IMG/VR virus record: IMGVR_UViG_3300006790_000110
Location: 1-24,101 of that record
Length of the DNA: 24,101 nt
Origin: a virus
Strand: one strand, 5' to 3'
Numbering within the stretch: the stretch's first letter is position 1; the number at the start of each line of letters is the position of its first letter. This document shows, piece after piece, positions 1 through 22,908 of this stretch. The notes beneath the pieces were generated by a model. That model saw nothing but the letters and a program-made list of their open reading frames with translations. It searched no databases and was not told the DNA's origin. The translations under genes and the position numbers were made by a program.

Positions 1-603
1 GCAGTGCATGTGCAAGAACTCACAGTTGATCCCCGTTTGCCTGTCTGCCTTGCCGTTGACTTCGGATACAGGAACCCTGCTGTCCTGTACTTTCAACATG
101 TGCCCTTCTGCAAGCAACACGGCACAAAGAACTGCATACACATCATTGATGAAGATCAACCTTCAAACTGCAGCACAAGGCAACTTGTTCAACTGATTGA
201 AGACAAGTGCAAGCGCAAGGCCTTCAGAAGGGGCATTGCGTATGTTGACCCTGCAGGGGCTGCTGCATCAATCGTTGAAGGCTATTCTGATGTCAGCCTG
301 TTGAAGGGGGCAGGGTGGAAAGTTGTTGCCACCTATGATCCGAGAAAAAGGTGGATTCCCTACGGGATCGATCAAATACGTCTGAAACTGAAGCCACACA
401 ACAGCCCTGCAGAACTGTACATTGACAAGGCCCTGAAACATGAAAGGGGCATCACAAGAAGTCTGCAGGCTTCAAAATATCCTGACAAGCAGGCAGGCAC
501 ACAGGCAAACATTCCCTTGAAGTGTGGAGTGTATGATCATGCCCGTGATGCCCTTCGGTATGCTGTCATTGGTCTTGAAAACAAGGGGGTCAAAACACTG
601 TGA
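1..603 (+). CDS. terL: Terminase large subunit, C-terminal nuclease domain (5' end outside window)
   Basis: This is the end of the large terminase, the motor that pumps DNA through the portal and cuts it. The reading frame is open from base 1, so the N-terminal ATPase domain lies upstream of the window. Only the RNase H-like nuclease domain is seen. Its three acidic metal-binding positions fit the sequence: Asp in VDFGYRNP (residue 20 of the visible frame), Asp in YVDPAGA (residue 83) and the C-terminal DHARDALRYA block (Asp 179 and 183). A GTG at base 4 is not a credible start. The stop overlaps the next gene's GTG. The family call is firm; which acidic residues are catalytic is inferred from the family pattern. 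Confidence 0.92.
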   Translation, partial: AVHVQELTVDPRLPVCLAVDFGYRNPAVLYFQHVPFCKQHGTKNCIHIIDEDQPSNCSTRQLVQLIEDKCKRKAFRRGIAYVDPAGAAASIVEGYSDVSLLKGAGWKVVATYDPRKRWIPYGIDQIRLKLKPHNSPAELYIDKALKHERGITRSLQASKYPDKQAGTQANIPLKCGVYDHARDALRYAVIGLENKGVKTL

Positions 604-1298
604 TTGTGACACTGCAGCAGGCAAACGCGGCCTGCAATCTTGCTGCCAGGTGGTATGCAGAGAGAAACAACAGACCTTTTGAAGGGTGGGGCAGTGACTG
701 CACTGACCGCTCCAAAATGCCGTGGTTTCTGGACTGCATGAACAAGGCCTGCCTTCTGCTTGCCTTTGAACAGGGCACTGCCTTTGCTGCCCTGTGGGGG
801 CGTTGCATGCAAGAAACAGGGGCTGCCTGGTATGATCAAGAACAGAAGTCAGATGAAGAGTGTGAAAGGTTGTACGGCTATCAGACAAGCACGGGGCAGA
901 ACCTTGGCAACACTGAACCGGGTGATGGGGCACTGTTCAAGGGCAGGGGTGTCATTCAACTCACAGGGCGCGCAAACTATGAAAAGGCACAGGCAAGGTT
1001 CAATGTGCCCTTTGTGACTGAACCTGACCTTGTCATTGAACCTGTGAACGCTGCCCGGATTATTGTTTGGTACCTTGTAGAAGAAATGCCTGCAAGGCAC
1101 GGGTGGAACACTCCCTACCCCTGGTTGATTGACAGTGACCTGTCCCTTGAAGAGAAAACCTACAGGGTCAGTGCTTGTATCAATTGGGGCTTCTTTCAAC
1201 CCTGGAATAGGCACCCTGCCAAGGAGCAGATTCACGGTTGGCCTGAAACTCTGATGTATGCACAGGCAATGTCTGACATCATAGGCTTGAAGCCATGA
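600..1298 (+). CDS. GH19 chitinase/lysozyme-type endolysin
   Basis: A 232-residue enzyme predicted to cleave the glycan strands of peptidoglycan for host lysis. The GH19 signature is clear: MQETGAAW around residues 70-77, with Glu72 as the probable catalytic acid, then GDG (108-110), FKGRGVIQLTGR (113-124) and ANY. There is no signal peptide or separate cell-wall-binding domain, so export would need a holin. The GTG start overlaps the terminase stop (GTGA), with AAGGGGGT about 12 bases upstream. The setting is odd: it sits between terminase and methyltransferase, about 19 kb from the membrane-protein cluster that probably contains the holin. A virion-associated role is possible but less likely without fused structural domains. 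Confidence 0.85.
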   Translation: MIVTLQQANAACNLAARWYAERNNRPFEGWGSDCTDRSKMPWFLDCMNKACLLLAFEQGTAFAALWGRCMQETGAAWYDQEQKSDEECERLYGYQTSTGQNLGNTEPGDGALFKGRGVIQLTGRANYEKAQARFNVPFVTEPDLVIEPVNAARIIVWYLVEEMPARHGWNTPYPWLIDSDLSLEEKTYRVSACINWGFFQPWNRHPAKEQIHGWPETLMYAQAMSDIIGLKP

Positions 1299-2377
1299 AC
1301 CCCCTGAAAGACATGAATCCCCTGTTGTTTGAAGGTGACTGCCTTGAACTGATGCAGTGCCTGCCTGACTGTTGCATTGATGCAGTTGTCACTGACCCAC
1401 CCTACGGGCTGTCCTTCATGAACAAGGGATGGGATCATGCAGTGCCCCCTGTGGCAGTGTGGCAAGAATGCTTCAGGCTGTTGAAGCCTGGGGGGCACCT
1501 GTTAGCGTTTGCGGGCACAAGGACACAACACAGGATGTGCTGCAACATTGAAGATGCAGGCTTTCAGATCCGTGACATGATTGCATGGGTGTACGGTTCA
1601 GGCTTCCCAAAAAGTCATGACATCAGCAAGGCAATTGACAAGGCAGCAGGGGCAGAAATTGAATATGTTGCACATCCTGCCTATGCAAAAAACAACGGCA
1701 ACAAAGCCAAGGGCAAGTTTGGTCAATGCAACAGAAAGCATGACATCAGGTGCATACCTGTGCCAACAACAGACATTGCAAAACAGTGGCAGGGGTGGGG
1801 CACTGCCTTGAAGCCTGCCTTTGAACCTGTAACGGTAGCAAGAAAGCCCCTTGAAGGCACAGTTGCAGAGAATGTGTTGCAGTACGGCACAGGGGGCTTG
1901 AACATTGACGGCAGCAGGATTGATTCACCTGACAACCCTGTCAACAGGTACCCTTCAAACTTCATTCATGACGGCAGCCCTGAAGCAGTGGCACCCCTGC
2001 AGGGCAATCAGAGGTTCTTCTACTGTGCAAAGGCAGATCAAGCAGACCGTGATGCAGGCCTGTCAAAGGCAATCAGCACAGGCCCTGAAAGAAGCAACAG
2101 AGAAGACATTGACAACCCCTACATAGGCACAAGATCCCCTGCAAGGAACAATCACCCCACAGTCAAGCCCCTTGCCCTGATGAAGTACTTGTGCAGGCTT
2201 GTCACACAACCAGGGGGCGTTGTTCTTGACCCCTTCATGGGTTCAGGCACAACAGGCAGGGCTTGCCTTGAAGAAGGCTTCATTTTTGTGGGCATGGAAA
2301 AAGATCCTGAGTACTTCAAACTTTGTCAGCAAAGGGTGACAAGGGTGCAGTTGCCCTTGTTTGGGGGGCTTCTGTGA
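1295..2377 (+). CDS. Site-specific DNA methyltransferase (N6-adenine or N4-cytosine type)
   Basis: A 360-residue S-adenosylmethionine-dependent DNA methyltransferase of the N4/N6 methylase family. The catalytic motif DPPYG is at residues 34-38. The cofactor-binding motif DPFMGSGTTG is near the C-terminus (about 312-321), preceded by HPTVKPLALM. Motif IV before motif I is the beta-class order. The region between, about 110-240, would contain target recognition; the target sequence cannot be read from it. DPPY indicates an exocyclic amine target (N6-A or N4-C), not 5-methylcytosine. The ATG overlaps the endolysin stop (ATGA); a second ATG lies six codons in. A nuclease gene overlaps the 3' end, so the pair could protect phage DNA from host restriction or form a small modification/nuclease module. 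Confidence 0.9.
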   Translation: MNPLKDMNPLLFEGDCLELMQCLPDCCIDAVVTDPPYGLSFMNKGWDHAVPPVAVWQECFRLLKPGGHLLAFAGTRTQHRMCCNIEDAGFQIRDMIAWVYGSGFPKSHDISKAIDKAAGAEIEYVAHPAYAKNNGNKAKGKFGQCNRKHDIRCIPVPTTDIAKQWQGWGTALKPAFEPVTVARKPLEGTVAENVLQYGTGGLNIDGSRIDSPDNPVNRYPSNFIHDGSPEAVAPLQGNQRFFYCAKADQADRDAGLSKAISTGPERSNREDIDNPYIGTRSPARNNHPTVKPLALMKYLCRLVTQPGGVVLDPFMGSGTTGRACLEEGFIFVGMEKDPEYFKLCQQRVTRVQLPLFGGLL

Positions 2378-2871
2378 GCAAGTACGAAGATCTTTTTGCC
2401 CTTCAAGCAGAAGCAGCAGGCCTGACCTTTGAACGGCAGGTCAGGTTGATACCTATTCAGAGAACAAAGCCCTTGCACAAGAACAAAGACCTGAAGACAA
2501 GGCACAAGGTTGACTTCTTGTTCAGGTCTGCAGGCATTGTTCTTGAAGTGCAAGGGGGCACATGGTCAGGGGGCAGACACACCAGGGGCAAGGGGTATGA
2601 AGGGGATTGCCTGAAGCAAGCCCTGTTGCAACTTGAAGGGTTCACAGTGTACTATTGCACAGGGTCACAAGTAGAGTCAGGGCAAGCAATTTCATGGGTC
2701 AGGGAAGCGATAGACAATGACAAGAAAAGCAAGACCCCCTGCTGCTGCAGTGGCAGAAGCAAAGAAGATGTTGAAGTGGCGCGACAAGTACGGCAGAAAG
2801 CAAGTCAAGGGTGCGACAAGGGTGGGGTGGACAAGGGCACAACAACTTGCCAAGGGGCGCGCCCTGACTGA
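2374..2871 (+). CDS. PD-(D/E)XK superfamily (Vsr/DUF559-like) endonuclease
   Basis: A predicted small DNA nuclease. The likely core is VDF (Asp47) followed by LEVQG (Glu58-x-Gln60), then GGTWSGGRHTRGKGYE (61-76). This resembles the short phage endonucleases of the Vsr/MutH-like restriction fold. I chose GTG 2374, which overlaps the methyltransferase stop (TGTGA) after a G-rich stretch; an upstream TTG at 2323 would lie inside the methyltransferase and adds residues that do not match the family. The recognisable domain ends near residue 117. The last 50 or so codons run over the next gene in another frame and are Cys/Gly/Lys-rich without family character. The substrate is unknown; the methyltransferase partner suggests restriction-like or mismatch/junction cleavage. 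Confidence 0.7.
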   Translation: MSKYEDLFALQAEAAGLTFERQVRLIPIQRTKPLHKNKDLKTRHKVDFLFRSAGIVLEVQGGTWSGGRHTRGKGYEGDCLKQALLQLEGFTVYYCTGSQVESGQAISWVREAIDNDKKSKTPCCCSGRSKEDVEVARQVRQKASQGCDKGGVDKGTTTCQGARPD

Positions 2872-3112
2872 AGCCACAGTCAGGAGAATGGCAGCCTTTC
2901 AACGACACAGAAAGAATGCAGAAGTTGATGACAGGTACAAAGGGACACCCTGGAAGGACAGGGGGCGCGTTGCCTGGGGCACCTGGGGCGGTACAAGCGG
3001 GGTCAACTGGGCAATCAGAACTGTCAAGAAGTGGAACAGAGAAGACAAGCAGAAGGCAGCAAAGAAACGTCAGAACAAACGGGCACAAAGAAGAAGGAAG
3101 CGGCAAAGATGA
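2717..3112 (+). CDS. Small basic phage protein, function unknown
   Basis: A very basic 131-residue protein. It contains a segment that I recognise as recurrent in phage head-region genes: a helical part around GWTRAQQLAKGRALTEATVRRMAAF, broken here as GWTRAQQLAKGRAL (about 38-51) plus TVRRMAAFQRHRKN (55-68), followed by PWKDRGRVAWGTWGG (78-92). No catalytic motif is visible. The C-terminus (about 105-131) is Lys/Arg/Gln-rich and could bind DNA or RNA. ATG 2717 has AGGGA 11 bases upstream. The gene starts inside the 3' part of the nuclease gene, overlapping it by 155 bases, and its stop overlaps the portal ATG (ATGA). Packaging or head-assembly accessory is possible by position only. Confidence 0.7.
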   Translation: MTRKARPPAAAVAEAKKMLKWRDKYGRKQVKGATRVGWTRAQQLAKGRALTEATVRRMAAFQRHRKNAEVDDRYKGTPWKDRGRVAWGTWGGTSGVNWAIRTVKKWNREDKQKAAKKRQNKRAQRRRKRQR

Positions 3113-4431
3113 ACATCACAAGTGAAATGTTGCAGGCCCTTGTCAGGTCACAGGAACAGACAGACCGCCGTGAATACGTTGCAGGCCTGCTTGACATCTT
3201 CACAGGTGATTGGGGGCACCTGCTTGACGCTGAATTGCAGAAGTTGTTCCTGCCTCAGACGTATGAAAGGCTTGCACTCAGGGCTGACACTTCAATCAAT
3301 GTCTTCAAGCAGGCTGCAGAACAGATCGCTGCAATCTATTCACGGCAGGTGACAAGGACAATTGACAATGACCCTGCCCCCTTTGACGTGTTTGCAGATC
3401 TTGACATGGCTTTCTTCTCTGCAGACCAAACTGCCTTTGTGTGTCAAGAAGTCTTTGTCAGGCCTTTGTATGACCCTGACAGGGGTGTCATCACAGTTGA
3501 CCTGTTGACCCCTGACAGTGCCTGGGCAATGCCTGCAGACCTTGACCCCCTGGGCCTGAAGTTCCTGATGTATCAAAGGGGTGAACAGTATGTTGTGTGG
3601 ACTGCAAGCAATTTTGCAGTGTATGACAGAGACTTCAACCTGTTGCCTGACCCTGACAACCCTGACCACGTCAACCCTTTTGGTGTCATTCCTTGGGTCT
3701 GCATTCACAACAAGTACCCTGCTGACGGGCAGGTGTTTCATGAAGGGCAGTCTGAACAACTAAGGCAGGCAACGTTGTCAACAGGCATTCAGAAGACAGA
3801 CCTGAACCACATTCAACACCTGCAGTCATTCAAGCAACTTGTTGGCATAGGCTTTGATGACAGTGACAAAGCACAGAAGATGTCAGACCCTGCTTCAATC
3901 CTGACCGTTGACAACCCGGGTGCTTCTGTCAGTGTTCTTGACATGCAAGCAAACATCAAAAGTCATCTTGATGCAGTGCTTGAAGCAAGTTCAGTGACTC
4001 TGAATCAACTAGGCATCAGGCCTGAAATGACAAGGGGCACCCTGTCTGCATCTTCAGGCTATGCCCTGACAATTCAACTGCACAACCTTGAAAGGCAGTG
4101 GGAACAAAGGCGAAACCTGTGGAGACTGTACGAACAACGTTTCTATGATGTTGCCCGCCTTGTGTGGCAGGCCTTCACAGGTGAAGCACTGCCTGAAGGC
4201 AAAGTGCAGGTTGAATATCAACCCCTTGGCCCTGGTGCCAACCTTGTTGAACAGGTCAACACCTTTGCAGTTGCTGTCAGGGAGAAACTGTTGTCAAGGC
4301 AGCATGCAATGCAACAACTGTGGGACATGACACAGGAACAGGCAGAAGCAGAGATTGCATTGATTCAACAAGAAGAAGTTGCCCTGATGCAACCCCTGTT
4401 GCCCTTGACAGGCCTGTCTGATGTCAATTGA
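3109..4431 (+). CDS. Portal protein
   Basis: A 440-residue portal protein, the dodecameric ring at the capsid vertex through which DNA is packaged. It fits by position (after terminase, before the gp7-like minor head protein), by length and by sequence character: an N-terminal helical segment with YSRQVTR, a central beta-rich part with DLLTPDSAWAMP and YVVWT, and a C-terminal helical wing with SSGYALTIQLHNLERQW and a Gln/Glu-rich end. I placed the start at ATG 3109 because it overlaps the upstream stop (ATGA) and has GGAAG 8 bases upstream; the open frame extends to 3031, but that 26-residue Lys/Gln-rich extension lies inside the preceding gene. The gene overlaps the next one by 11 bases. Confidence 0.88.
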   Translation: MNITSEMLQALVRSQEQTDRREYVAGLLDIFTGDWGHLLDAELQKLFLPQTYERLALRADTSINVFKQAAEQIAAIYSRQVTRTIDNDPAPFDVFADLDMAFFSADQTAFVCQEVFVRPLYDPDRGVITVDLLTPDSAWAMPADLDPLGLKFLMYQRGEQYVVWTASNFAVYDRDFNLLPDPDNPDHVNPFGVIPWVCIHNKYPADGQVFHEGQSEQLRQATLSTGIQKTDLNHIQHLQSFKQLVGIGFDDSDKAQKMSDPASILTVDNPGASVSVLDMQANIKSHLDAVLEASSVTLNQLGIRPEMTRGTLSASSGYALTIQLHNLERQWEQRRNLWRLYEQRFYDVARLVWQAFTGEALPEGKVQVEYQPLGPGANLVEQVNTFAVAVREKLLSRQHAMQQLWDMTQEQAEAEIALIQQEEVALMQPLLPLTGLSDVN

Positions 4432-5278
4432 CAGCCTGACAGAAACAGCAGAAGAACAAGTCAAAAGGATTGCAAGGCAGTACAGGAAACAACTGCCTGA
4501 CTTGCGTGACTTTATACTGCAGTGGATACGAGACAACAGACAGGCTGACGGGCTGTTGCGCTCACAAGTCAGCCTTTCCCTTGTGTATGCCCTGATTGAT
4601 CGGGCAGGGACTAAGAAATACTTTGACTTTGACCCTTTCTTGAACCTTGCGACAGAGACAGCCCTACAGAAGTTGAAGGGATTGGGGATTGAATACACAG
4701 GGGGGCTTGAAACGCCTTCAATCAGGGGGCTTGAAGCAGCCCTTGCAGGTGAAGGGGTTGCTTTTCTGGAACAACAACAGGCAGCCCGTGACACTGCAAC
4801 CCTGCAGGTTGCAAGGGTCAGAGACAACATTGCAGCACAGGTGCAGCAGGTGTTGCTTCAGATGCAGGTTGTGCCCACCCCTTTGACAGTGGCAGCAGCA
4901 CAAGTGTCTGCAGTCAGCAACCTGTCACAGGGTCAGGCTGAAACGATTGTCAGGACAGCCTTGTCAGGGCAGGTGCAGTCAATTCAGAATGCAGCAGGGG
5001 CAAGGATGGAGCAGGCAGGCATTGATGTCTTGTACCTGTATTCAGGCCCTGATGACAACCTTGACAGGCCCTTCTGTGATGTCTGTGTTGGTTATGCCTT
5101 CACAAAAAAGCAGATTGCAGCCCTGAACAACAACCAGGGCCTTGCAGTCACTACACACTGTGGCGGATACAACTGCAGGCATGAATGGGTGCCTGTGCCT
5201 GTCACCTTTGTTGAACGTCAGAACATACCCCTTGCCACAGGTGACTTGATAGGCAGGGCAAACAGGGCTGCAAGATGA
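4421..5278 (+). CDS. Minor head protein, SPP1 gp7-like head morphogenesis
   Basis: A 285-residue minor capsid/head morphogenesis protein of the SPP1 gp7 type, which associates with the portal and is packaged in small numbers. The C-terminal signature is typical: RPFCDVC (about 218-224), then ITALNN-like QIAALNNNQGL and HCGGYNCRHEWVPV (about 246-259). The two Cys pairs plus His could bind metal. The first 200 residues are mainly helical and Gln/Ala-rich. The ATG lies 11 bases inside the portal gene, and the stop overlaps the following ATG, so translation is probably coupled. Portal followed by a gp7-like gene, then scaffold and capsid gene is the SPP1-style head order. Confidence 0.82.
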   Translation: MSIDSLTETAEEQVKRIARQYRKQLPDLRDFILQWIRDNRQADGLLRSQVSLSLVYALIDRAGTKKYFDFDPFLNLATETALQKLKGLGIEYTGGLETPSIRGLEAALAGEGVAFLEQQQAARDTATLQVARVRDNIAAQVQQVLLQMQVVPTPLTVAAAQVSAVSNLSQGQAETIVRTALSGQVQSIQNAAGARMEQAGIDVLYLYSGPDDNLDRPFCDVCVGYAFTKKQIAALNNNQGLAVTTHCGGYNCRHEWVPVPVTFVERQNIPLATGDLIGRANRAAR

Positions 5279-5736
5279 TCAAGATCCCAAGGAACATACA
5301 ACTGCCGATCCCTGAAGAACTGTCACCTGACACTGCCCTTGCAATCGTTGAAGTTGCAGGGTCAACAGGTGTTGCTGCTATCAAGACAAGAACACGGGCA
5401 GGCAGGGGCATTGATGACAACAAGATGAAGACACCTTCAAAGACTCCGAACGAGCAAGGCACCTATTCAAAGGCCTACAGTGACAAACGGGCTGACAGAA
5501 GGGTTGACATCAGGGATCTGACTTGGACAGGGGCAATGGTTCAGGGTGTCATTCTTGACAGGATAGAAACCACACAGACAGGGGCGCGGGCAGTCATCAC
5601 AGTCACAAACGATCAAAAAGAAAAGGCTGCCTTCAATCAGGTCATGTCACCCTGGTTCGGTATCAGCCCACAGGATGAACAGGCAATCCTTGCCGTTGCA
5701 GAAGCAGAACTGCAGAAGTTGCTTTCACAGGCATAA
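5275..5736 (+). CDS. Possible neck or tail-completion protein
   Basis: A 153-residue protein I do not firmly recognise. The segment IKTRTRAG (about 36-43), YSKAYSDKRADRR (63-75) and VDIRDLTWTGAMVQGV (76-91), followed by a beta-rich stretch and PWFGISPQDEQAI, resembles phage proteins with a '...S/T-G-x-M/L...' core such as HK97 gp10-like or tail-completion families. This is an impression from pattern, not an established match. It is the last gene of the first head block: its ATG overlaps the upstream stop (ATGA), and its TAA is directly followed by a strong stem-loop. The expected place for a gp10-like protein is after the capsid gene, so the location is a reason for caution. Confidence 0.6.
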   Translation: MIKIPRNIQLPIPEELSPDTALAIVEVAGSTGVAAIKTRTRAGRGIDDNKMKTPSKTPNEQGTYSKAYSDKRADRRVDIRDLTWTGAMVQGVILDRIETTQTGARAVITVTNDQKEKAAFNQVMSPWFGISPQDEQAILAVAEAELQKLLSQA

Positions 5737-5772
5737 AAAAGCCCCTATTCAAGGGGTTGAACAGGGGCTTTT
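5737..5772 (+). terminator. Strong stem-loop, probable bidirectional terminator or processing site
   Basis: AAAAGCCCCT (5737-5746) pairs perfectly with AGGGGCTTTT (5763-5772). Inside this, after one A/C mismatch, TTCAA (5748-5752) pairs with TTGAA (5757-5761) around a GGGG loop. The A-run on the left and T-run on the right make it terminator-like on both strands. The T-run is only four bases, so termination may be partial. It begins right after the TAA of the preceding gene. No convincing promoter is seen in the 47 bases before the scaffold gene, which suggests partial read-through, attenuation or RNA processing that sets a different dose for scaffold and capsid. Confidence 0.8.
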
Positions 5773-5819
5773 CAGATTGTACTGATGCCCTGAAACAATA
5801 GCACATGAAGGGTCACACC

Positions 5820-6275
5820 ATGACAGAGAAAACCAAAGAAGAAGAAGTGTTGAATCAACTTGCTGCCTTGTTCCTTGATGATGAAGAACAACCTGCAGAA
5901 GCCCCTTCAGAAGCCACAGAAGGGACAGAACAACCTGCAGAAGGGGCAGGGGTTGATGTTGCAGCCCTGCAAGCAGAGAATGAAGCCCTGAAGGCACAGT
6001 TGCAGGAATACACAGAACAGGCAGGCAAGTTGCTTCAAGCCCGGGTGAAGAACTTGTCAGACAAGAAGAAGGGCAAGATGCAAGATCTTTTTTCAGCCTT
6101 GAAGGCTGACAACCCCTTGCAACAACTTTCGATTTTGCATACAATTCAGGGTGCTACGTCTGCACCTTCAGTAGACAATGCAAGGCACAGTGCAAACAGT
6201 GTCAGCACCAAACCAAAGAACCTGAAAGAATTGAGGGGCAACCTGAAGAAGATTCTTTCAAATGCCAACAAGTAG
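5820..6275 (+). CDS. Scaffolding protein
   Basis: A predicted 151-residue scaffold that organises capsid subunits into the procapsid and is then lost. The evidence is context (directly before the major capsid gene) and composition: a highly acidic, Pro/Glu/Ala-rich N-terminal half, a coiled-coil segment VDVAALQAENEALKAQLQEY (about 45-64) and a short basic helical C-terminus (NLKELRGNLKKIL) like the coat-binding tails of other scaffolds. I chose ATG 5820, which has AAGGGT 7 bases before it; an in-frame ATG at 5805 lacks a ribosome site. It is the first gene after the stem-loop. No protease motif (Ser-His) is visible. Confidence 0.75.
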   Translation: MTEKTKEEEVLNQLAALFLDDEEQPAEAPSEATEGTEQPAEGAGVDVAALQAENEALKAQLQEYTEQAGKLLQARVKNLSDKKKGKMQDLFSALKADNPLQQLSILHTIQGATSAPSVDNARHSANSVSTKPKNLKELRGNLKKILSNANK

Positions 6276-6286
6276 GAGTGTGAATC

Positions 6287-7333
6287 ATGGCAACTGAAAC
6301 ACTGACAAGCCTTGCGAATGGCTTGCGTCAGAACTATGGCAATGAAATTGTCATGTCCCTGGTAGACAGTGGCGGCAGTCACCTGAAAAGCATTGTGCCC
6401 CCCAATTCTGTCATTGGCAGACTCTCTGTCAACAACAGGATCTTCTTTCAGGGCATGGGTGCAGACAGGGGTGGACGGTACGCTGCACAGTTCCCTGTGT
6501 ACTACTCTGCAGGGGCTGCTGCATCCTATGCGCAGGGTGATGCCTACCCTTCTGCAACAAATGTCAGCATTGCACAGGCACTTGCAGAATGGGCGCGGTA
6601 TTGGATCCCTATGGAAATGGACGGGCTTGCAATCCATGCTGCACAAGGCAACTCTGTTGTCGGTGACTTGGACAGCATTGCACTTGAGTTTGAACTGAAA
6701 CTGAAGGCCCTGTTTTCTCGCCTTGAAAATGACCTTGTCAAAGCACAGTCAGGAAACAACCTTGCAGGGGTCAAGACTTGGATGACAAACACAGGCACCT
6801 TTGAAGGCCTGTCTTTGACAAACTCATGGTGGCAGCCTGCGATCAAGGATGCTGCAACCAATCCCATCACTCGGGCAATGATCCGTGAAGTGTTTGCACA
6901 ACTTGCCGATCAAAATGCACGGCCTAACGAGATCTGGTGCAGCAGAACGCAATACAACAAGATTGCAGAAGTGCTTGGCAGTGACATTCAGTATGTTGAA
7001 GTGCAGAGTGTTGAAGGCTTGATCCGCACCTTCACCCTTGACGGGGTGCCTGCCTTCCCGATTGACAGCATGGAGCCTTCAGGCAATGCAGTGAACGATG
7101 AAGTCTGGTTCATCAACACTGACATGATGTCACTGCATTTTCTGCCGCAAGACACCCCACAGACAGACGTTGAACTTGAAACAATGCCTGCTTCTTTTGA
7201 AGGGTACCCTGTGGGCGTGAAAGCCATTGATCCGGGTCATGATGCAGAGTCAATGATCATCAAGTGCTACCCTCAACTTGTGTGCAAGAATCCAAGTCAG
7301 TTTGGTGTCATTTTTGATCTTGCTACTAGCTAA
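6287..7333 (+). CDS. Major capsid protein (HK97-type fold expected)
   Basis: The 348-residue shell protein. It is recognised by position after the scaffold, by size, by an excellent ribosome site (TAGGAG 9 bases before ATG) and by character: an N-terminal arm, RYAAQFPVYYSAGAA (about 64-78), a long acidic helix around DSIALEFELKLKALFSRLENDLVKA cut here as DSIALEFELKLKALF, the WCSRTQYNKIAEVLG segment and a beta-rich C-terminal P-loop/A-domain region (FPIDSM, GYPVGVKAIDPG). There is no long N-terminal delta domain and no adjacent protease gene, so assembly probably relies on the separate scaffold. Fold assignment is by family analogy. Confidence 0.85.
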   Translation: MATETLTSLANGLRQNYGNEIVMSLVDSGGSHLKSIVPPNSVIGRLSVNNRIFFQGMGADRGGRYAAQFPVYYSAGAAASYAQGDAYPSATNVSIAQALAEWARYWIPMEMDGLAIHAAQGNSVVGDLDSIALEFELKLKALFSRLENDLVKAQSGNNLAGVKTWMTNTGTFEGLSLTNSWWQPAIKDAATNPITRAMIREVFAQLADQNARPNEIWCSRTQYNKIAEVLGSDIQYVEVQSVEGLIRTFTLDGVPAFPIDSMEPSGNAVNDEVWFINTDMMSLHFLPQDTPQTDVELETMPASFEGYPVGVKAIDPGHDAESMIIKCYPQLVCKNPSQFGVIFDLATS

Positions 7334-7359
7334 GACACAACAGAAAAGGAGTCAAAACA

Positions 7360-7737
7360 ATGGCTGTTTCACTTGCTAAGGTGGAGTCACAAGAAGACTA
7401 CACAGGGATCGGCAAACTTGTTGATCTTCAAATGGCAGTTGTCGACACAGACGGATCAATTTCCTATGAAGCAGGGGGCGTTGAACTTGACCTTGCATCA
7501 TTCTCTGACAACCTTGTGACAGGTGACTTGCTTGCCCTTCACGGCTATGTCAAAGGGGCAGTTGCAGAAGCCAATATTGTGGATTACAAAGTGAAGTACA
7601 ATCACTCCACAAACAAAATGCAGTTGTTCATGCTAAGAACTGCAGCAAACGGGGGCACTGCTGAACCCGGAACAACCACAATCACAACAACCTTCAGGCT
7701 TGTCTTGTTCTTTGTTGAACCAGGCACAAACGCTTGA
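7360..7737 (+). CDS. Probable capsid decoration or minor structural protein
   Basis: A 125-residue, beta-rich protein directly after the capsid gene with a very strong ribosome site (AAAAGGAG). It has the shape of a family I recognise downstream of many major capsid genes: a middle Gly-Tyr segment (HGYVKGAV), VKYNHSTNKMQLF (about 79-91), and near the end TTTITTTFRLVLFFVEP. Such proteins are thought to decorate or stabilise the shell, but the specific role is inferred from position. There are no membrane segments or catalytic motifs. The 26-base gap upstream holds only the ribosome site. Confidence 0.6.
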   Translation: MAVSLAKVESQEDYTGIGKLVDLQMAVVDTDGSISYEAGGVELDLASFSDNLVTGDLLALHGYVKGAVAEANIVDYKVKYNHSTNKMQLFMLRTAANGGTAEPGTTTITTTFRLVLFFVEPGTNA

Positions 7738-7772
7738 TGTTGATGTTGTAATTTTGCAAAGGGGGTCAACAA

Positions 7773-8219
7773 ATGCAAAACGAACAACTGCAGAAACTTG
7801 ACGGGCTTGCCCTGTCTGACTACCTCAGAACACTGCCTGCCACTGTCCACAGAGAAACATGTGAGGACATTGCAGGGTGGGTTGACTTGTCAACCTGGTG
7901 TGAACTTGAAGAACCTTTTCAGACCTACGTTGCATGGGGCATTGAAGGTGAATCAGGTTCCTATGGCAACGGCAGAACGTTTGCCCTTGAGATAGTCGGG
8001 CAGGGTGTGACCCTGATGCAGGGCTTTGACAGAAGAAACAGAAGGGTCAAAAAGACCTTTGAACCGGGTGAAATTGTGGTCATGCGGGCAGGTGAAGCCC
8101 GGGTCACTTTCAAGACATACGGCCCAGGGTCTTCAATGGCATCAGACAGGGGCAAGGTGAAAGAACACAAGCCTGAACCTGTTGCAGTTGTTACCAAAAA
8201 GACAAGGCAGAAGAAATGA
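7773..8219 (+). CDS. Unknown protein of the capsid-tail region
   Basis: A 148-residue protein that I do not recognise. The middle is likely beta-rich (TFALEIVGQGVTLMQGF, FEPGEIVVMRAGEARVTFKTYG), and the C-terminus is Lys-rich (VVTKKTRQKK). There are no Cys clusters or membrane segments. The ribosome site is AAAGGGGGT, 8 bases before ATG, the same G5 variant used elsewhere in this window. The stop overlaps the next ATG (ATGA). Its place between the presumed decoration gene and the head-tail joining genes suggests a structural or assembly role, with no direct evidence. Confidence 0.65.
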   Translation: MQNEQLQKLDGLALSDYLRTLPATVHRETCEDIAGWVDLSTWCELEEPFQTYVAWGIEGESGSYGNGRTFALEIVGQGVTLMQGFDRRNRRVKKTFEPGEIVVMRAGEARVTFKTYGPGSSMASDRGKVKEHKPEPVAVVTKKTRQKK

Positions 8220-8941
8220 ATAGGGCGGGTCAAAGGGGCACAGTTGTCAGGGGTGAACAGGATGCCCTGCACTATAGGCTGATGATTGATGACTCTGAAG
8301 CCACTCTGACAGCAGCAGAGGTTGCAGTGCTTGATACCAACGGCAACACCCTTGTTGCAAGGACATCAACAGGGGTGACAATGTCAGGGGCTGTTGCCAC
8401 CTATTCAAGAACATGGTCTGCAAGTGTCTTTCAAATTGAAGATGCCTTCAGGGCTGTCTTCTACCTCACAAGCGGCGGCGTTGAATACACAAGGTCACTG
8501 TACTTTGACGTGGTTTTCAGGGCCTTCAACAGTCAGTTGACTGACAGTGACATCACTGATGTCAATCCCTACATTCAGACCCTGTCAGGGCAATCAAGCC
8601 TTGCCACCTTCAGGCGTGAAGCATGGAGAATGATCAGTGACACCTTGCGACAACGTCTGCAGGACAGGGGCAACAGGTCTGTCAACCCGGGCAATGTCTT
8701 TTATCCTGAACAGTTCTTCAATGCACACAGACTGCTGACAATGTCACGTTTCTACTTTGCCACTTCCTTCAGTTCTGCAGGGTCTGAAGACTGGGACAAG
8801 TACCTTGCCCTTGAAGCACAGGCCTTTGCTGCCATTGATGCACAACTTGCCAAGGTTGACGTTGACCTGTGGCCGCAGGATGGGCGTTTGGAGCCACAGG
8901 AAAGGGGCAGAAACTTCAACGGGGTGTCACTAGTCAGATGA
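8216..8941 (+). CDS. Probable head-tail adaptor (connector) protein
   Basis: A 241-residue protein with two visible parts. Residues 1-105 look like a small beta-sandwich (YRLMIDDSEATL, YSRTWSASVFQIED, SLYFDVVFRAF). Residues 110-230 are helical (LTDSDITDVNPYIQTLSG, FRREAWRMISDTLRQRL, FFNAHRLLTMSRFYFATSF, DWDKYLALEAQAF). The helical part looks like connector/adaptor proteins that bind under the portal, such as those of SPP1 gp15 or HK97 gp6 type; that comparison is by pattern and position. The start overlaps the upstream stop (ATGA), and the 3' end overlaps the next ATG by four bases. Adaptor is the best guess; a tail-connector role is the alternative. Confidence 0.6.
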   Translation: MNRAGQRGTVVRGEQDALHYRLMIDDSEATLTAAEVAVLDTNGNTLVARTSTGVTMSGAVATYSRTWSASVFQIEDAFRAVFYLTSGGVEYTRSLYFDVVFRAFNSQLTDSDITDVNPYIQTLSGQSSLATFRREAWRMISDTLRQRLQDRGNRSVNPGNVFYPEQFFNAHRLLTMSRFYFATSFSSAGSEDWDKYLALEAQAFAAIDAQLAKVDVDLWPQDGRLEPQERGRNFNGVSLVR

Positions 8942-9351
8942 CCTTTTCAACTGCCATGAACAGCCTGAAGACTGCCGTTGAAGCCACAGGCTTGACAGCA
9001 ACTGCAGGCACCTTTGACAGCACCCTGCAAACTGCTTCAAGGGTCAAGTATGATGGTGCCTACATGTTCAGGGTTGAATCAGGGGCTGCCTTGTATCAAG
9101 AACTGAAACTGTCACCTGAAGCCTTCAGTGTGACAATCACCCTTGAAATAGGCACAACCTTGAAGTCAGGTGAATCCTTTGAAGATGCACAGGCAAGGGC
9201 CTTGTTGCGCTCACAGAAGGCAATTGAAGCCCTGATTGCAAACAATCATACTGACGTTGTCAACATCACCAGGACAGGCACAAGCACAGTGCTTGTCAAT
9301 GACAGGCAACAGGTGACTCTGCAGCAGTTCACTTTGATCTTTCAGGAGTAG
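8938..9351 (+). CDS. Probable tail terminator or tail-completion protein
   Basis: A 137-residue protein located directly before the tail tube gene, where siphoviruses keep the tail terminator, the ring that caps the tube and docks it to the head. It has an alpha/beta pattern: an N-terminal helix (FSTAMNSLKTAVEATG), strands (AYMFRVESG, FSVTITLEIG), a helix (EDAQARALLRSQKAIEAL) and C-terminal strands (VVNITRT, VTLQQFTLIFQE). That order fits the lambda gpU/SPP1 gp17 type of fold, but I cannot confirm it. ATG 8938 overlaps the upstream stop (ATGA); the open frame extends 23 codons further up inside the preceding gene and that part is ignored. Confidence 0.55.
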   Translation: MTFSTAMNSLKTAVEATGLTATAGTFDSTLQTASRVKYDGAYMFRVESGAALYQELKLSPEAFSVTITLEIGTTLKSGESFEDAQARALLRSQKAIEALIANNHTDVVNITRTGTSTVLVNDRQQVTLQQFTLIFQE

Positions 9352-9356
9352 AAAAC

Positions 9357-9497
9357 ATGACAGACAGGGGCAGACATGACAGGCCATGGGCGCGGGCAAT
9401 TGTGATTGAATCACCCCCTGCCCCTGCAGTTGAACAAGACCCTGCAGCAGAAGAAGAACAACTGCCTGCAGATGATGCTGAAACTACAAAGGAGTAG
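9357..9497 (+). CDS. Small acidic/proline-rich protein (46 residues)
   Basis: A short gene filling the gap before the tail tube gene. It begins MTDRGRHDRPWARAIVIE, then becomes Pro/Ala/Glu-rich (SPPAPAVEQDPAAEEEQLP) and ends DDAETTKE. Support: a consensus-like ribosome site (AGGAG, 8 bases before ATG), snug fit between neighbours (5 bases after the upstream stop, 5 before the next ATG), and codon use that follows the window's habit (GAA for Glu, GCA/GCC for Ala, T before G). The sequence suggests a flexible tail or peptide. The function is unknown; position hints at tail assembly. Confidence 0.6.
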   Translation: MTDRGRHDRPWARAIVIESPPAPAVEQDPAAEEEQLPADDAETTKE

Positions 9498-9502
9498 AGA
9501 CA

Positions 9503-10942
9503 ATGGCAGGAAACTACAAACGCGCCGCGCTTGGATTGATCGGCTTTGTACCTGAAGTCAACCAGGGATATTCACCTTTTGAACAGTCAAGCAAGTCTTC
9601 AGGCAACACAACAACTTCACTTGTGATTGAAGTGACTTCAAGCACTTCTGCCCTGTACCCTGCAGGCCTTGCTGATGCAACAGCCCGTCAGAACTTTCTT
9701 GCAGACTACTTCAACGGGCTTTCTGTGTACCTGCCTGACAGTGAAGAACATGCATACATCACTGACACTGCCTATGTTGAAGCAAGTTCTGCCCTGACTC
9801 TGACAATCACCCCTGCCCTGGCAGCAGCAAGGGACAGTGCAACCTTCTATATTTTCGGCAGGTTGCCTGCAACGTCTGACTTCACGGTAGGCAAAGAAAA
9901 CCTGACGCGCCTTGACTTCAGAAGGGGTTCATGGACACCCCCAAGCAACCTGAAGGGATTGTCACAGGTTGAAGGTTCGATTGAAACTGAATTGCTTGGA
10001 CTTGAGACCCCTATTTCAGGGGCAGGGGCAACTGTCACCCTTGACAGGTATTCACACTTGTTGAGTGCAGTGGGCACAAGGTCTGCACATGTTGCTGACA
10101 CAGTGCAGGCAGGGTCAACCACAACAGCAATCAACCTATCAACTTCAGAAGCAAACGTGTTCAGTGCAGGTGATGCTGTCTTGATTGAAGGTCAGGTTGC
10201 CTATGTCACAGAAGCAACAGAAAGCCCGTCAGGTGACACAATCATCATTGCCCCTGCCTTGTCTGCCACCCCAACAGCAGCAGAACCCTTTCATGCAGGT
10301 GAAAAGTTCACCCCTGATGACACAGGGCAACTGTCTCTGACAATGGTTGAACTGATTGACGATCAACTGATTCAACACAAGGGCTGCATCATCAATGTCA
10401 GCCTGGCAAGTCAGTTCAGTCAGACCCTGACCATGACAGTTGAAGCCACAGGTGAAGACTTTGAACTGACTGACTCCTTCACGATTGCAGGCAACATTCC
10501 CCTTGCAAGCAAGAACAGCACACCCCCTGCCCCTGTGAAGTTTGTGCAGGGTCGGGCTTTCTTTGGAAGCACTGAACTTGACTGCAGCAACGTTGACTTC
10601 AACTACAACATTGAACGCTCTGTTGTCAGAGACACAGGTGACAGTGACACTGCACAACAGTCTGTGTTTGTCACAGGGCGCGCCCCTTCTGCAGGGGTGT
10701 CCTTCAGGAACAAAGCAAAGACCTTCAAGGACACCACAGAAGCAAACGGCACACAGGCCCGGCTTCTGCTGCAGTTTGGCAATGAAGCAGGCAACACTGT
10801 TGCAATCATAGGCAATGCACAACCTTCTGACCCTGCAACATACGGGGACAATGAAGGCATCAGCACTTATGATGCAACGTTTGCCTTTGTCGATGATGAA
10901 GTTGCAACGACTTACAACAAGGCGTTCTTCTACCGTTTCTAA
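9503..10942 (+). CDS. Major tail (tube) protein
   Basis: A 479-residue, beta-rich protein, the probable subunit of the tail tube. Support: location just before the tail chaperone pair and tape measure, strong ribosome site (AAAGGAG), and segments typical of siphoviral tube proteins such as FRRGSWTPPSNLKGL (about 134-148), GLSQVEGSIETELLG and TLDRYSHLLSAVG. It is about twice the length of lambda gpV, so extra surface domains are likely; the stretch about 195-260 (repeated Ser/Thr/Ala with VLIEGQVAYVTEA) may be an inserted beta domain. A 250-codon open frame on the opposite strand (10981-10229) is a shadow and is not annotated. Confidence 0.75.
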   Translation: MAGNYKRAALGLIGFVPEVNQGYSPFEQSSKSSGNTTTSLVIEVTSSTSALYPAGLADATARQNFLADYFNGLSVYLPDSEEHAYITDTAYVEASSALTLTITPALAAARDSATFYIFGRLPATSDFTVGKENLTRLDFRRGSWTPPSNLKGLSQVEGSIETELLGLETPISGAGATVTLDRYSHLLSAVGTRSAHVADTVQAGSTTTAINLSTSEANVFSAGDAVLIEGQVAYVTEATESPSGDTIIIAPALSATPTAAEPFHAGEKFTPDDTGQLSLTMVELIDDQLIQHKGCIINVSLASQFSQTLTMTVEATGEDFELTDSFTIAGNIPLASKNSTPPAPVKFVQGRAFFGSTELDCSNVDFNYNIERSVVRDTGDSDTAQQSVFVTGRAPSAGVSFRNKAKTFKDTTEANGTQARLLLQFGNEAGNTVAIIGNAQPSDPATYGDNEGISTYDATFAFVDDEVATTYNKAFFYRF

Positions 10943-10967
10943 CCTTTCAACGTGAATGGGGGTCAAC

Positions 10968-11519
10968 ATGTCACGTTTCACACTTCAATCCTTGCGCAAC
11001 ACAAGAATCAGGCTTGTCAGCAAGTTTGATCCGGCTATTGATTGGGAAGCAATGTCTGCACAGGGCATTGCCTTTGATGACTATGATGCCAGGAAGCACA
11101 GTGACAAAGTTGTTGTGTTGCCTGATATGAAGGCCCTTGCTTTCTGGTGTCACAGTCCAACAGTCAGGGAAAGAATCACTGCTTTTCAGCAGGCAGGAAT
11201 TGAAGTGGATTCAGAGTCTGGTGTTCAGTACATAGGTGCAGCGTCAACTTCTGCACTGTATGCACCGGGCAACGGGGCACTTGTTGGTCTGACCCTCGCT
11301 TGCAAGTGTCTCGCCTATCTTGTTATTGACAGCATTGACAGTGTCACAGTCACCCCCTTCAAACAGGTCAACAAGTACGGTCTGAAACAGGTGACACAGG
11401 CAGCCCTTGAAAGCATTGCCCCTGTTGTCAATCATGAAGTCAGCATTGATGACCTTGACCCCCTGTTGATTGAAATAGGGGGTTGTTTCCTGAATGAAGA
11501 CAGTGAAACGGGAAACTGA
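10968..11519 (+). CDS. Tail assembly chaperone, zero-frame product (lambda gpG-like role)
   Basis: A 183-residue protein between tail tube and tape measure, where tail assembly chaperones sit. They coat the tape measure and recruit tube subunits. I do not see strong sequence identity to a known family; the assignment rests on position and on the frameshift signal at its 3' end. ATG 10968 is preferred over ATG 10956 because GGGGGTC lies 4 to 5 bases before it, the same ribosome-site variant as at 7773. The final codons read ...GAA ACG GGA AAC TGA, so a GGGAAAC slippery heptamer ends exactly at the stop codon. Most ribosomes should stop and yield this short form. Confidence 0.75.
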   Translation: MSRFTLQSLRNTRIRLVSKFDPAIDWEAMSAQGIAFDDYDARKHSDKVVVLPDMKALAFWCHSPTVRERITAFQQAGIEVDSESGVQYIGAASTSALYAPGNGALVGLTLACKCLAYLVIDSIDSVTVTPFKQVNKYGLKQVTQAALESIAPVVNHEVSIDDLDPLLIEIGGCFLNEDSETGN

Positions 11520-11555
11520 TTGAAGGCCTTGAAGCGGCTTTCTTTTGGCCCTTCA
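11510..11555 (+). promoter_or_regulatory. Predicted programmed -1 ribosomal frameshift signal
   Basis: The heptamer GGGAAAC (11510-11516) is in the right phase (G GGA AAC) for a -1 slip, and the zero-frame stop TGA follows at once (11517-11519). After slipping to GGG AAA, reading continues CTG ATT GAA into the downstream open frame. Four bases later a hairpin can form: TGAAGG (11521-11526) with CCTTCA (11550-11555), continued by CC (11527-11528) with GG (11547-11548) across one bulged C. Lambda G/GT uses the closely related GGGAAAG at the same genomic position. What is seen is the signal; efficiency is unknown. Confidence 0.8.
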
Positions 11556-11926
11556 TGAAAGAACAGCACAACCTGCAGAATGACTGTTCAGTCTGCAAAA
11601 CAGATGAACACGTTGCCACCCTGTGGGGGTGCAGGGGGCCTTCACCTGAAAGGGGTGGCTTTGTGTATGACATAGGGGGCAGGCCTTGCAGAAGGTGCCC
11701 CCTGTCCTTGTTGAAGCAGGAAACTGTTCAACATGCCTTGCGACTCTACAAAGCCTACAAACGCGGGCACCTTGTGTCAGCAGGCAGCCTTGATGAACAG
11801 CCTGCACTGTATTGTGAAGTCATGTATACTTGTGAAGCCCTTGAAGTTTCTGCTGCAAACTGGGACATGAAGCAGAGTCAAGAAAAGGCAAACAAGAAAA
11901 CAAAGGCAATGAAGCAAAGGTCTTGA
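11516..11926 (+). CDS. Tail assembly chaperone, -1 frame extension (lambda gpT-like role)
   Basis: A 136-residue segment, predicted to be made only as a fusion of about 319 residues with the upstream protein after the -1 slip at 11510-11516. The frame is open from 11507. A free-standing start at ATG 11555 is unlikely because the bases before it are pyrimidine-rich with no ribosome site. The junction would read SETGNLIEGLEAAFFWPF. The extension holds five Cys in the order C-x2-C (DCSVC), C (LWGC), C-x2-C (PCRRC), which might bind zinc, then helices (QETVQHALRLYKAYKRG, DEQPALYCEVMYTCEALE) and a Lys-rich tail. The stop is 3 bases before the tape-measure ATG, as expected for the GT product. Confidence 0.75.
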   Translation: MIEGLEAAFFWPFMKEQHNLQNDCSVCKTDEHVATLWGCRGPSPERGGFVYDIGGRPCRRCPLSLLKQETVQHALRLYKAYKRGHLVSAGSLDEQPALYCEVMYTCEALEVSAANWDMKQSQEKANKKTKAMKQRS

Positions 11927-11929
11927 ATC

Positions 11930-14731: not shown

Positions 14732-15564
14732 TGGGCCTGGGCAATCCCCCTTGCTTTGTAGGCAAGGTCAACATCACGTCAGAAAACAATGAATTGTATT
14801 GGTCAGAACAAACGTCAGGGGCAAACAACACAAGCCTGAACATTGCAGAACTGTACCCTGAAGCCCTGGCAACAGAAATATCAACTGCAATGACTTCTGC
14901 AAGCGTTGCAGGCAATGCCTATGCCTGCACCTTTGACCCTTCAACAGGGAAGTACACCATTGAAAGAACGTCAGGCACTGAAGACTTTGCCATTGATGCA
15001 AGGACATCACAGGCAGGCAATGCATGGATAGGTGGAACAACTGACTCAAAAGGCAACACATGGTCAACTGAACAGTACGGCCCTTTCACCCTTGGGTGGG
15101 CAGCAGCAACAGCCCTGACAGCCTATGCAGAAAGCCACACAAGCCCACAGGTGTCAGGGGCAGTGTGGTTTCCTTCACAACCTGCACAGGATGACAATGG
15201 GGGTGCTGACAATGCCCTTGTCACACAGGCTGCTGCAATGGACGGCACACAGGTGACCTATACCTTCACACAGTGGCAGACAAGCAATGAAAGCAAACAC
15301 TTCCCTCACTACCTTGACAAGAATCAGACAAGAACATGGGTGTTTAGGTACATCACACAGGCAAGCAGGGATCAATTCATTCAGTTTTGGGGTGCTTATG
15401 CAAGGTCAGGGGGCGCGTTCAAGTTCTTTCCTGACTACTCTGCAAGCACGTTCTATGAATACAAACTGACCCTTGAATCCTGCAGAGAACGCACCTTCAC
15501 AGAAAGAACAGTGCAGGGGTACCCGTACTATTCAGGCACCTTGTCTGCAAGGGGTGCAGAATGA
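14728..15564 (+). CDS. Probable distal tail or tail-tip structural protein
   Basis: A 278-residue protein directly after the tape measure, where distal tail proteins usually lie. The N-terminal part holds a pattern seen in several phage tail proteins: VNITSENNELYWSE (about 14-27), LNIAELYPEALATEISTAM (38-56), then YACTFDPSTGKYTIERTSG, a strand-rich domain. The C-terminal part (WVFRYITQASRDQFIQFWG, FKFFPDYSASTFYEYKLTLE) resembles domains that measure a displacement against the tail tip. I place the start at ATG 14728, overlapping the tape-measure stop (ATGATG) with AGGGGG upstream; the longer frame from 14647 lies inside the tape measure gene. The function is by position and pattern. Confidence 0.65.
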   Translation: MMGLGNPPCFVGKVNITSENNELYWSEQTSGANNTSLNIAELYPEALATEISTAMTSASVAGNAYACTFDPSTGKYTIERTSGTEDFAIDARTSQAGNAWIGGTTDSKGNTWSTEQYGPFTLGWAAATALTAYAESHTSPQVSGAVWFPSQPAQDDNGGADNALVTQAAAMDGTQVTYTFTQWQTSNESKHFPHYLDKNQTRTWVFRYITQASRDQFIQFWGAYARSGGAFKFFPDYSASTFYEYKLTLESCRERTFTERTVQGYPYYSGTLSARGAE

Positions 15565-18005: not shown

Positions 18006-18006
18006 C

Positions 18007-18684
18007 ATGGCAATCACAAGCCTTTTCAAGGTACTTTCCTTTGACAGTGTTGAAGCAGGTGACAACATCCTTGAAACGTGGTTGACAAGGGCCTTTCAAG
18101 CAGTCAATGCCCTTTATGAAGGGACAATTGACTCTGCAGCGGTAGGCAAGACAGCAGGCAGTCAACTGTGGGAAGGTCACGATCATGGCCCTGGGGGCGG
18201 CCCTGCAATGCAAAGGGGGTGCCTGTATAGCATTGACGGGGGCAGCAGTGCCCTGTTCACCCTGGCATTGACGGCAAAGACACCGCAAGACATGACCTTT
18301 GACCAATGGTACACAATCCCCGGGTACTTTTCTGATGTTGGCAGGTTCTTTGTCAGTCCAAGGGTCACAGGGCCTTTGCAAGTGTGGGTCTGCTATGATT
18401 GTGTTGACAGCCCTGTGATTGTCAAAGCCCGTGAAGCAGCAGCAGCCCTGTCAGACCCTGACCCTGTGGGGGCAATCGTGCCTGTCACGCTAGACAAGAC
18501 AACAGACAGTGCAGAGTCACCAACCTATCAATGGGCCTTGCTTCAAATGCCCTGCAGCCCGGGCAGGATGAATGCCCTGCAGATTGAATGTGAAAGTGAA
18601 ACAGATGCAACCTTTCAGGTGTATTCAATCGTGATTGCAGAAGTTGAAGGCCTGACTGTCAACAGCAAGGGGGTCAGGTTGTGA
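18007..18684 (+). CDS. Tail appendage protein, paralog 1 of 3
   Basis: A 225-residue protein, the first of three tandem genes sharing an N-terminal module. The shared part here is FQAVNALYEGTID (about 30-42), then GHDHGPGGGPAMQRGCLYS (57-75). The His-x-His in GHDH may bind metal, as is common in phage fibre and appendage proteins, but this is not shown. The rest is beta-rich (LQVWVCYDCVDSPVIV, ATFQVYSIVIAEVEGL) and likely forms a jelly-roll-like domain. I chose ATG 18007, which follows GGGGGG and lies one base after the tail hub stop; the upstream ATG 17980 is inside that gene. Receptor binding or tail decoration is the likely role. Confidence 0.6.
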   Translation: MAITSLFKVLSFDSVEAGDNILETWLTRAFQAVNALYEGTIDSAAVGKTAGSQLWEGHDHGPGGGPAMQRGCLYSIDGGSSALFTLALTAKTPQDMTFDQWYTIPGYFSDVGRFFVSPRVTGPLQVWVCYDCVDSPVIVKAREAAAALSDPDPVGAIVPVTLDKTTDSAESPTYQWALLQMPCSPGRMNALQIECESETDATFQVYSIVIAEVEGLTVNSKGVRL

Positions 18685-20080: not shown

Positions 20081-20219
20081 AGCGACCCTGACACAGATTG
20101 ACAGGGCAACTGAAGACTTCATTGACTTCTTGAAGGTGCAGAGTGAAACGTTGCAGGCCCTGGTGACTGCTTCAGGCACTTATGATGCAGTTGAACACTG
20201 TGCCCTTGAAGAAGAATGA
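20049..20219 (+). CDS. Small acidic helical protein (56 residues)
   Basis: A short gene between the third tail paralog and the membrane-protein cluster. It starts MTVQLPQPDLEATLTQIDRA and continues as one amphipathic acidic helix (TEDFIDFLKVQSETLQALVT), ending HCALEEE. Support: AGGGGTG four bases before ATG 20049, overlap of 32 bases with the upstream gene in another frame, an ATGA overlap with the next gene, and codon choice typical of the window. Without it, 135 bases here would be empty in an otherwise gapless operon. The function is unknown; position suggests a lysis or virion accessory role. Confidence 0.6.
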   Translation: MTVQLPQPDLEATLTQIDRATEDFIDFLKVQSETLQALVTASGTYDAVEHCALEEE

Positions 20220-21191: not shown

Positions 21192-21192
21192 C

Positions 21193-22712: not shown

Positions 22713-22908
22713 TGTGTGTGTCCTTTTCAATCAGAAGGGTTGTGTGTGTTTTGAAGTGTGCCTTGATGATGCCCCCTGCAACAGGCAGAGTCAGGGCAAA
22801 CAAAGGGCCTGTGACCCTGTCACCTGCAAGGGCGCGATCAATCAGACACCAGGCAGCAACAACTTCTGCCCCTGTGAACTGCCCCTTGAAGACAACTTCA
22901 AGTTTCAA
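22678..22908 (-). CDS. Unknown protein after the helicase (76 residues)
   Basis: A short protein that I do not recognise. It is supported by codon use like the neighbours and by close packing: it begins 11 bases inside the helicase 3' end and ends 35 bases inside the zinc-finger gene. The main body (LEVVFKGQFTGAEVVAAWCL, then IDRALAGDRVTGPLFALTLP) looks like a small alpha/beta fold; the C-terminal Thr/His/Asp-rich end overlaps the next gene. The start is uncertain. TTG 22908 has AGGG about 9 bases upstream; TTG 22932 is eight codons earlier. No ATG is available. The function is unknown; position suggests a replication accessory. Confidence 0.5.
   Translation of the reverse strand: MKLEVVFKGQFTGAEVVAAWCLIDRALAGDRVTGPLFALTLPVAGGIIKAHFKTHTTLLIEKDTHNDSFRENDCRT

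Follow-up and report, generated by a model that had tools for sequence, protein, structure and literature searches.

Context-dependent codon bias is well documented (Moura et al., 2007, PMC1952141; Tats et al., 2008, PMC2585594; McVean and Hurst, 2000, as cited in PMC1952141). Discrimination between the last base of a codon and the first base of the next (N3-N1) is weak in bacteria, avoidance of UA extends to all domains, and rejection of CpG together with an excess of CA/TG is a trait of higher eukaryotes (PMC1952141; PMC2585594). A genomic signature has also been described in phages (Deschavanne et al., 2010, PMC2917420). Their median values are close to 1.00 for CpG and 0.77 for TpA, and a family at CpG 0.82 was called low (PMC11409064). 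Joint suppression of CpG and UpA is known as a pattern of eukaryotic mRNAs and of RNA viruses (Simmonds et al., 2013, PMC3829696).

The DNA analysed here, called the window in what follows, is a 24.1 kb uncultured-virus record (IMG/VR IMGVR_UViG_3300006790_000110, 1..24101). This phage, with a GC content of 51%, has a terminase fragment, a GH19-like lysin, an N6/N4 DNA methyltransferase, an SPP1-type portal, an SU10-type capsid protein, tail genes, a Mom/XF1762-like protein and a DnaB helicase. Compared with named phages, its portal, capsid and tail proteins had no match, and TerL and the GH19 protein had weak matches only.

Third bases of codons across the window

A preliminary description, made from the letters alone, had noticed that in the portal gene (3109..4431, + strand; SPP1 Gp6-like, Pfam PF05133) codons ending in a pyrimidine switch from C to T when the next codon begins with G. 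Its counts were correct to within one codon: 93 such codons precede a G, with 8 ending in C (about 90 and 7 had been reported), and 37 of the first 45 that precede another base end in C (36 reported). For the entire gene the C:T ratio is 8:85 before G against 106:31 otherwise (106/137 C; Fisher p = 7e-27). That genes of both strands behave alike, as had been asserted, holds for 30/30 tested ORFs, with p from 5e-4 to 2e-50; a few of these ORFs are alternative or doubtful frames, and a curated gene list gives the same result. As a case in point, the DnaB-type helicase at the far end (22898..24064, − strand) shows the same switch as elsewhere, with C:T at 6:70 before G and 104:24 otherwise. When the choice of pyrimidine is tabulated gene by gene against the following base, the dependence is thus significant well beyond the portal gene. 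Pooled over 30 curated genes of both strands, C:T stands at 153:1313 when the next base is G, at 1024:59 when it is A, at 458:261 when it is C and at 399:239 when it is T, so that C closes 10% of pyrimidine-ending codons with a G to follow, 95% with an A and 63% with a C or T.

The observation is therefore confirmed, genome-wide. Its interpretation, avoidance of CG across codon borders with C preferred elsewhere, is partly supported. Avoidance of CpG is real at the borders (159 boundary CG observed against 726 expected from synonymous-codon shuffles, z = −32; rho 0.26 for the genome, 0.21 at boundaries), but the grammar is not bound to them. A preference for C elsewhere is evident before A, where it is mostly avoidance of TpA, since TpA is as depleted as CpG (boundary TA: 60 against 521 expected in the same shuffles, z = −30); before C or T it falls to the 63% given above. 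Leucine is indeed written CTT before G in 202/234 cases. Outside this context leucine is mostly CTG or TTG, and CTT takes their place before G; because CTC is rare in every context, the word avoided here is TGG/CCA, not CpG. The words CTTGA, which had been attributed to CpG avoidance, are as abundant as claimed (181 on both strands, against 46 expected from base composition and 90 from a dinucleotide Markov model). Since the CTT switch is avoidance of TGG/CCA, CpG avoidance alone is insufficient to account for them.

Words of double-stranded DNA

Over the whole window (1..24101), TpA (rho 0.24) and CpG (rho 0.26) are depleted to the same degree, and CA/TG exceeds expectation (1.68). The depletion is even, varying in 2 kb steps from 0.18 to 0.37 for CpG and from 0.11 to 0.34 for TpA. 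Several trinucleotides are also avoided, with CTC/GAG at 0.20 of expectation, CCA/TGG at 0.32, TCC/GGA at 0.43 and TTA/TAA at 0.14; CCT/AGG, TCA/TGA and GAA/TTC are favoured. Within genes, CG and TA stand at 0.21 and 0.11 across codon positions 3-1, at 0.20 and 0.15 across positions 2-3, and at 0.46 and 0.57 across positions 1-2. The 693 bases of noncoding DNA contain 8 CG, where about 43 are expected, and 9 TA. CpG and TpA are self-complementary and therefore uninformative about the strand, so that the strand test rests on trinucleotides: counted on sense strands only, trinucleotide bias follows that of the reverse complements with r = 0.90. Its presence inside codons, at positions where it changes amino acids and in noncoding DNA, together with the strand symmetry of its trinucleotide part, makes the grammar a feature of the DNA sequence itself. 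Its target is DNA words, not codons and not one strand, and it is most visible at third bases because those are free to change.

Proteins bear its mark. In alignments with two contigs of a sister lineage (L020 and L015, of lineage B below), arginine is found in the relative only at 103 positions and in the window only at 56, while cysteine (32 window-only against 10 relative-only), histidine (22 against 8) and glutamine (156 against 99) are gained, three residues with codons that begin with TG or CA. Stop codons between 3109 and 24064 are nearly all TGA, in line with TpA avoidance, and TAA is retained by the capsid gene, the tail-type gene at 9503-10942 and the gene at 5275-5736.

Avoidance of restriction sites was considered as a cause and rejected: the depletion is not confined to sites of four to six bases, with all 16/16 NCGN contexts at 0.07-0.49 of expectation and all 16/16 NTAN contexts at 0-0.57. 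Avoidance of particular sites, AGCT (4 against 87 expected) and GGWCC, comes in addition to the grammar. Selection against CpG and UpA in RNA was discarded as well; it would fit the joint depletion, but there is no sense-strand specificity, as the correlation with reverse complements makes plain. Selection of codon pairs at translation, through context effects on the ribosome, can draw on the avoidance of NNU-ANN pairs in all domains, which is attributed to translation (PMC2585594). It is disfavoured and extremely improbable: noncoding DNA, codon positions 1-2 and 2-3 and reverse-complement words all have the bias, and the gene most relaxed of all is that of the capsid, whose expression is presumably high.

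This gene, which codes for the SU10-like major capsid protein (6287..7333, + strand), has a CpG rho of 0.40 and uses AGR for 4/12 of its arginine codons. Taken together with the main tail-type gene (9503-10942), AGR amounts to 12/28 against about 70% elsewhere (p = 0.005), and this lean toward CGN hints that host translation prefers CGN. The capsid proteins of the window and of lineage B are 92-93% identical, but the same codon is used at just 37-38% of conserved residues, and the capsid gene contains CpG 26 times in the window against 123-125 times in that lineage.

Sister lineages and strain differences

The window belongs to lineage A, with contigs L003-L007, L012 and L013, all uniform in CpG (0.24-0.29) and TpA (0.23-0.29). 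Three sister lineages, with amino-acid identities of 76-78% in TerL and 86-93% in the major capsid protein, follow other rules, each lineage being uniform in its own. Lineage B (L008, L010, L011, L014-L017, L019-L021) has CpG at 1.5-1.6, TpA at 0.4-0.5 and AA at 1.6-1.8; lineage C (L018, L022, L023, L227, L246) has CpG at 1.3 and TpA at 0.4-0.46; lineage D (L233, L234), seen from contigs of about 5-6 kb only, has CpG at 1.25, TpA at 1.58 and CpA at 0.65 (CA/TG is 0.65 in whole loci of both contigs), nearly a mirror image of A. Homologous genes are colinear in the stretches compared, TerL identity between lineages is 72-83%, and in an unrooted TerL tree of few sequences A and D group together (support 0.994). 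Site avoidance, compared in the window, L008/L021, L022 and L233/L234, is also distributed by lineage: GGWCC is avoided in A, B and C, AGCT in A, CCAGG in B (0 against 25 expected), and GGCC and CCGG in D. According to contig names, A and D occur together in dataset 3300025093, and A and B in dataset 3300007234. The signature thus differs radically among lineages of one phage family. As phages so alike in their proteins obey divergent, in one case nearly opposite, rules, the cause of the grammar can change quickly in evolution, and it is testable.

The strength of the rules can be expressed as the information that the two preceding bases carry about the next one. In lineage A it amounts to 0.19-0.25 bit per base; 167 unrelated phage contigs reach at most 0.125, with a median of 0.038. 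The background is non-random: DnaB-bearing IMG/VR contigs make up nearly all of it, and many had been preselected for low CpG at one motif, so that the comparison should be conservative for CpG. Lineage C has a grammar of ordinary strength (0.05-0.07 bit). Among unrelated phage contigs, L153 has the dinucleotide pattern of the window in attenuated form (CpG 0.52, TpA 0.45, CA 1.67, GC 0.53) and has an XF1762-like gene, with a trinucleotide pattern unrelated to that of the window, and two others, L084 and L087, have TpA above 1.3.

What maintains such a grammar can be approached by counting synonymous C/T differences between the window and strains that share about 95.7% identity with it. Sites before C or T, themselves touched by the trinucleotide rules, served as the neutral reference. 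Before G, 47 C/T differences are found, where selection or fixation bias predicts 51, hypermutable CpG 271 and suppressed mutation 17; before A, 42 are found, against 29, 119 and 11, respectively, a count above the prediction from selection (p = 0.03). One-sided mutation models are rejected for pyrimidine sites before G in lineage A, both in their hypermutable (p = 2e-63) and in their suppressed form (p = 3e-9). A two-sided fixation bias with S about 2.5 (2.4-2.8), similar for CpG and TpA and due to selection or to an equivalent biased repair, fits best. In lineage B the same test places the differences between the predictions from selection and from hypermutability, an intermediate result which indicates that the method does not return selection by default. 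Deamination of 5-methylcytosine, with the CpG hypermutability that goes with it, is discarded on these counts, 47 differences before G where 271 are needed, and TpA is equally depleted.

A mutational signature of host replication or repair, altering rates both ways at CpG and TpA in the absence of selection, would fit the strand symmetry and the noncoding depletion. It would also accord with the intermediate counts of lineage B and with the view that phage signatures generally follow the host (PMC2917420, for temperate phages). We consider it distinctly unlikely, however, because its one-sided versions are rejected in lineage A and its two-sided version needs several coordinated changes of rate.

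Candidate causes and known counterparts

In the reading that we retain, with about an even chance of being right, the switch is what shows most plainly of a word grammar that runs through the whole double-stranded genome and is set by the intracellular environment. The results above establish that CpG, TpA, a few trinucleotides and their complements are avoided as DNA words, to an extreme degree and differently in each lineage, and that in lineage A a two-sided fixation bias, not CpG hypermutability, keeps this up. Beyond them, each lineage would have adapted to a different intracellular nucleic-acid environment. This environment would most simply be a different host, its repair, restriction or nuclease make-up setting the signature; that of the window lineage would penalise CpG and TpA words.

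A host-imposed environment is the simplest reading of the cause. In its support, the XF1762/Mom-like gene (21751..22275, − strand; NF045478, E 9e-47), absent from L012 and L013, which are 95% identical to the window, is already written in the grammar (CpG rho 0.16). A donor with the same grammar would account for this most readily; the alternative is loss from the other strains. The gene is cleanly inserted, with 4-base overlaps on both sides, and its flanking genes abut in L012 and L013. As a cause of the signature it was rejected, near-identical strains without it having the signature all the same. Against a host-imposed cause stand the CGN lean of the capsid and tail genes, the over-represented TpA of lineage D (1.58), a feature rare in any genome known to us, and the outcome of host searches. 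An RpoB motif written in the grammar had six matches among the genomes of 84,980 species, none with the signature; this single pattern has limited power, with a chance of matching the true host estimated at roughly 0.3. Aligned with the same genomes, the capsid found no relative. In IMG/VR, a DnaB motif in the grammar retrieved just the phage family of the window and one phage devoid of the signature, and a looser one gave 116 usable phage loci, none alike. The cyanobacterial HIP1 site, taken as a possible hint of the host, has zero counts in A, C and D and 7 in B. Since no host with the signature was found in about 85,000 species searched, the grammar could not serve for host linking, a use that had been put forward for testing.

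Selection specific to the phage, by a nuclease-like or restriction-like defence with very short targets, purging words independently of the signature of the host, must be weighed at this point. It would agree with the lack of a signature-bearing host in these searches, with a fixation bias of like size for CpG and TpA, with a capsid gene that leans to CGN as if host codon preference were ordinary, and with a signature about twice as strong as that of any unrelated contig. Nevertheless it is unlikely: CpG-rich or TpA-rich lineages are present in the same datasets, the avoided trinucleotides fit no single short target, and lineage D favours TpA. Moreover, we know of no defence that has dinucleotide targets in DNA.

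The phage might also encode its own dialect. The N6/N4-type DNA methyltransferase gene (1295..2377, + strand; PF01555, E 3e-32) overlaps by 4 bases, at 2374-2377, the gene of a predicted Vsr-fold PD-(D/E)XK nuclease (2374..2871, + strand), an assignment made from alignment, a structure model (pLDDT 68, core 80-95) and Foldseek. The resemblance is weak by score, with matches to I-Bth0305I, NGO0050, AbaSI, PvuRts1I and E. coli Vsr at E-values from 1.6e-3 to 0.1. The arrangement is found in all four lineages, and the methyltransferase gene evolves faster than the portal gene, with about 58% identity to lineage B where tblastn gives a full-length alignment. The nuclease frame has a 3′ extension into the next gene in lineage A and a stop after 116 residues in lineage D. 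L234 has a second methyltransferase gene, with an SPPY motif, ahead of the conserved one (2477-3319, + strand), which its sister L233 lacks. Immediately upstream of the portal gene, the window codes for a very basic protein of 131 residues (2717-3112, + strand), kept in all four lineages with 77-79% identity to lineage B.

In E. coli, biased repair shifts oligonucleotide counts. If the methyltransferase and the putative nuclease, or similar functions, repaired or cut mismatches with a context bias proper to each lineage, a two-sided substitution bias would be expected, and close relatives with opposite grammars would find an explanation in an overlapping gene pair that all four lineages possess and that is less conserved than portal and capsid. 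This is improbable, however: the fold is predicted, with matches at E 1.6e-3 or worse, an N6/N4 methyltransferase is no obvious partner for CpG or TpA, and lineage C has the cassette but a grammar of ordinary strength. A bolder version, in which the phage machinery would drive its own DNA toward one grammar and disfavour DNA written in another, so that relatives from the same water would diverge to opposites while keeping their proteins, seems to us very improbable.

Whatever the cause, this family is a natural experiment, with capsids 86-93% identical, colinear genes and four signatures, two of which are almost each other's reverse, and with substitutions in one lineage that look like selection on two-letter words. 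Short-word signatures are a means of assigning viruses to hosts, and as a rule they are regarded as host-inherited and slow to change. If the host is the cause, as in the reading that we retain, such a family offers a measure of the pace at which a signature is replaced once the host has changed; if it is not, host prediction from signatures fails for these phages, and bacteria would have to harbour an unknown force that acts on CpG and TpA. In either case, a phage jointly suppresses CpG and TpA at the DNA level, a pattern otherwise discussed mostly for eukaryotic mRNAs and RNA viruses. Leaving aside the 2024 survey of Forni et al., we know of no prior description of this strength, of this action on DNA in a phage, or of near-inversion among close relatives.

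Set against known systems, the window resembles each of them in part. With the suppression of CpG and UpA (PMC3829696) it shares joint depletion, excess of CA and UG and a selection-like substitution pattern, but it is a double-stranded DNA phage, and its bias is strand-symmetric, extends to noncoding DNA and has trinucleotide rules. Vertebrate-type 5-methylcytosine deamination also yields low CpG and high TG/CA; here, however, TpA is equally low and CpG is not hypermutable to the required degree. In the very-short-patch repair cassette Dcm-Vsr of E. coli, the genes for a methyltransferase and a Vsr-fold nuclease overlap; the overlapping pair of the window would be comparable, its nuclease being a predicted and at most distantly Vsr-like one, but its methyltransferase is of the N6/N4 type, not 5-methylcytosine. 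As in the genomic signature of phages, short-word usage is constant from end to end and common to close strains; by contrast, values of 0.26 and 0.24 depart from those of that literature, and similar genomes usually share their signature, which the relatives do not do here. Codon-context bias, finally, has the third base set by the first base of the next codon, avoidance of UA, and species-specific rules that follow the dinucleotide bias of the genome; the dependence on the next base is found here gene after gene, but this phage nearly excludes CpG and TpA at 51% GC and has close relatives that are nearly inverted. The phenomenon is of a known kind, context-dependent codon bias or genomic signature, and is here extreme in strength and lability.
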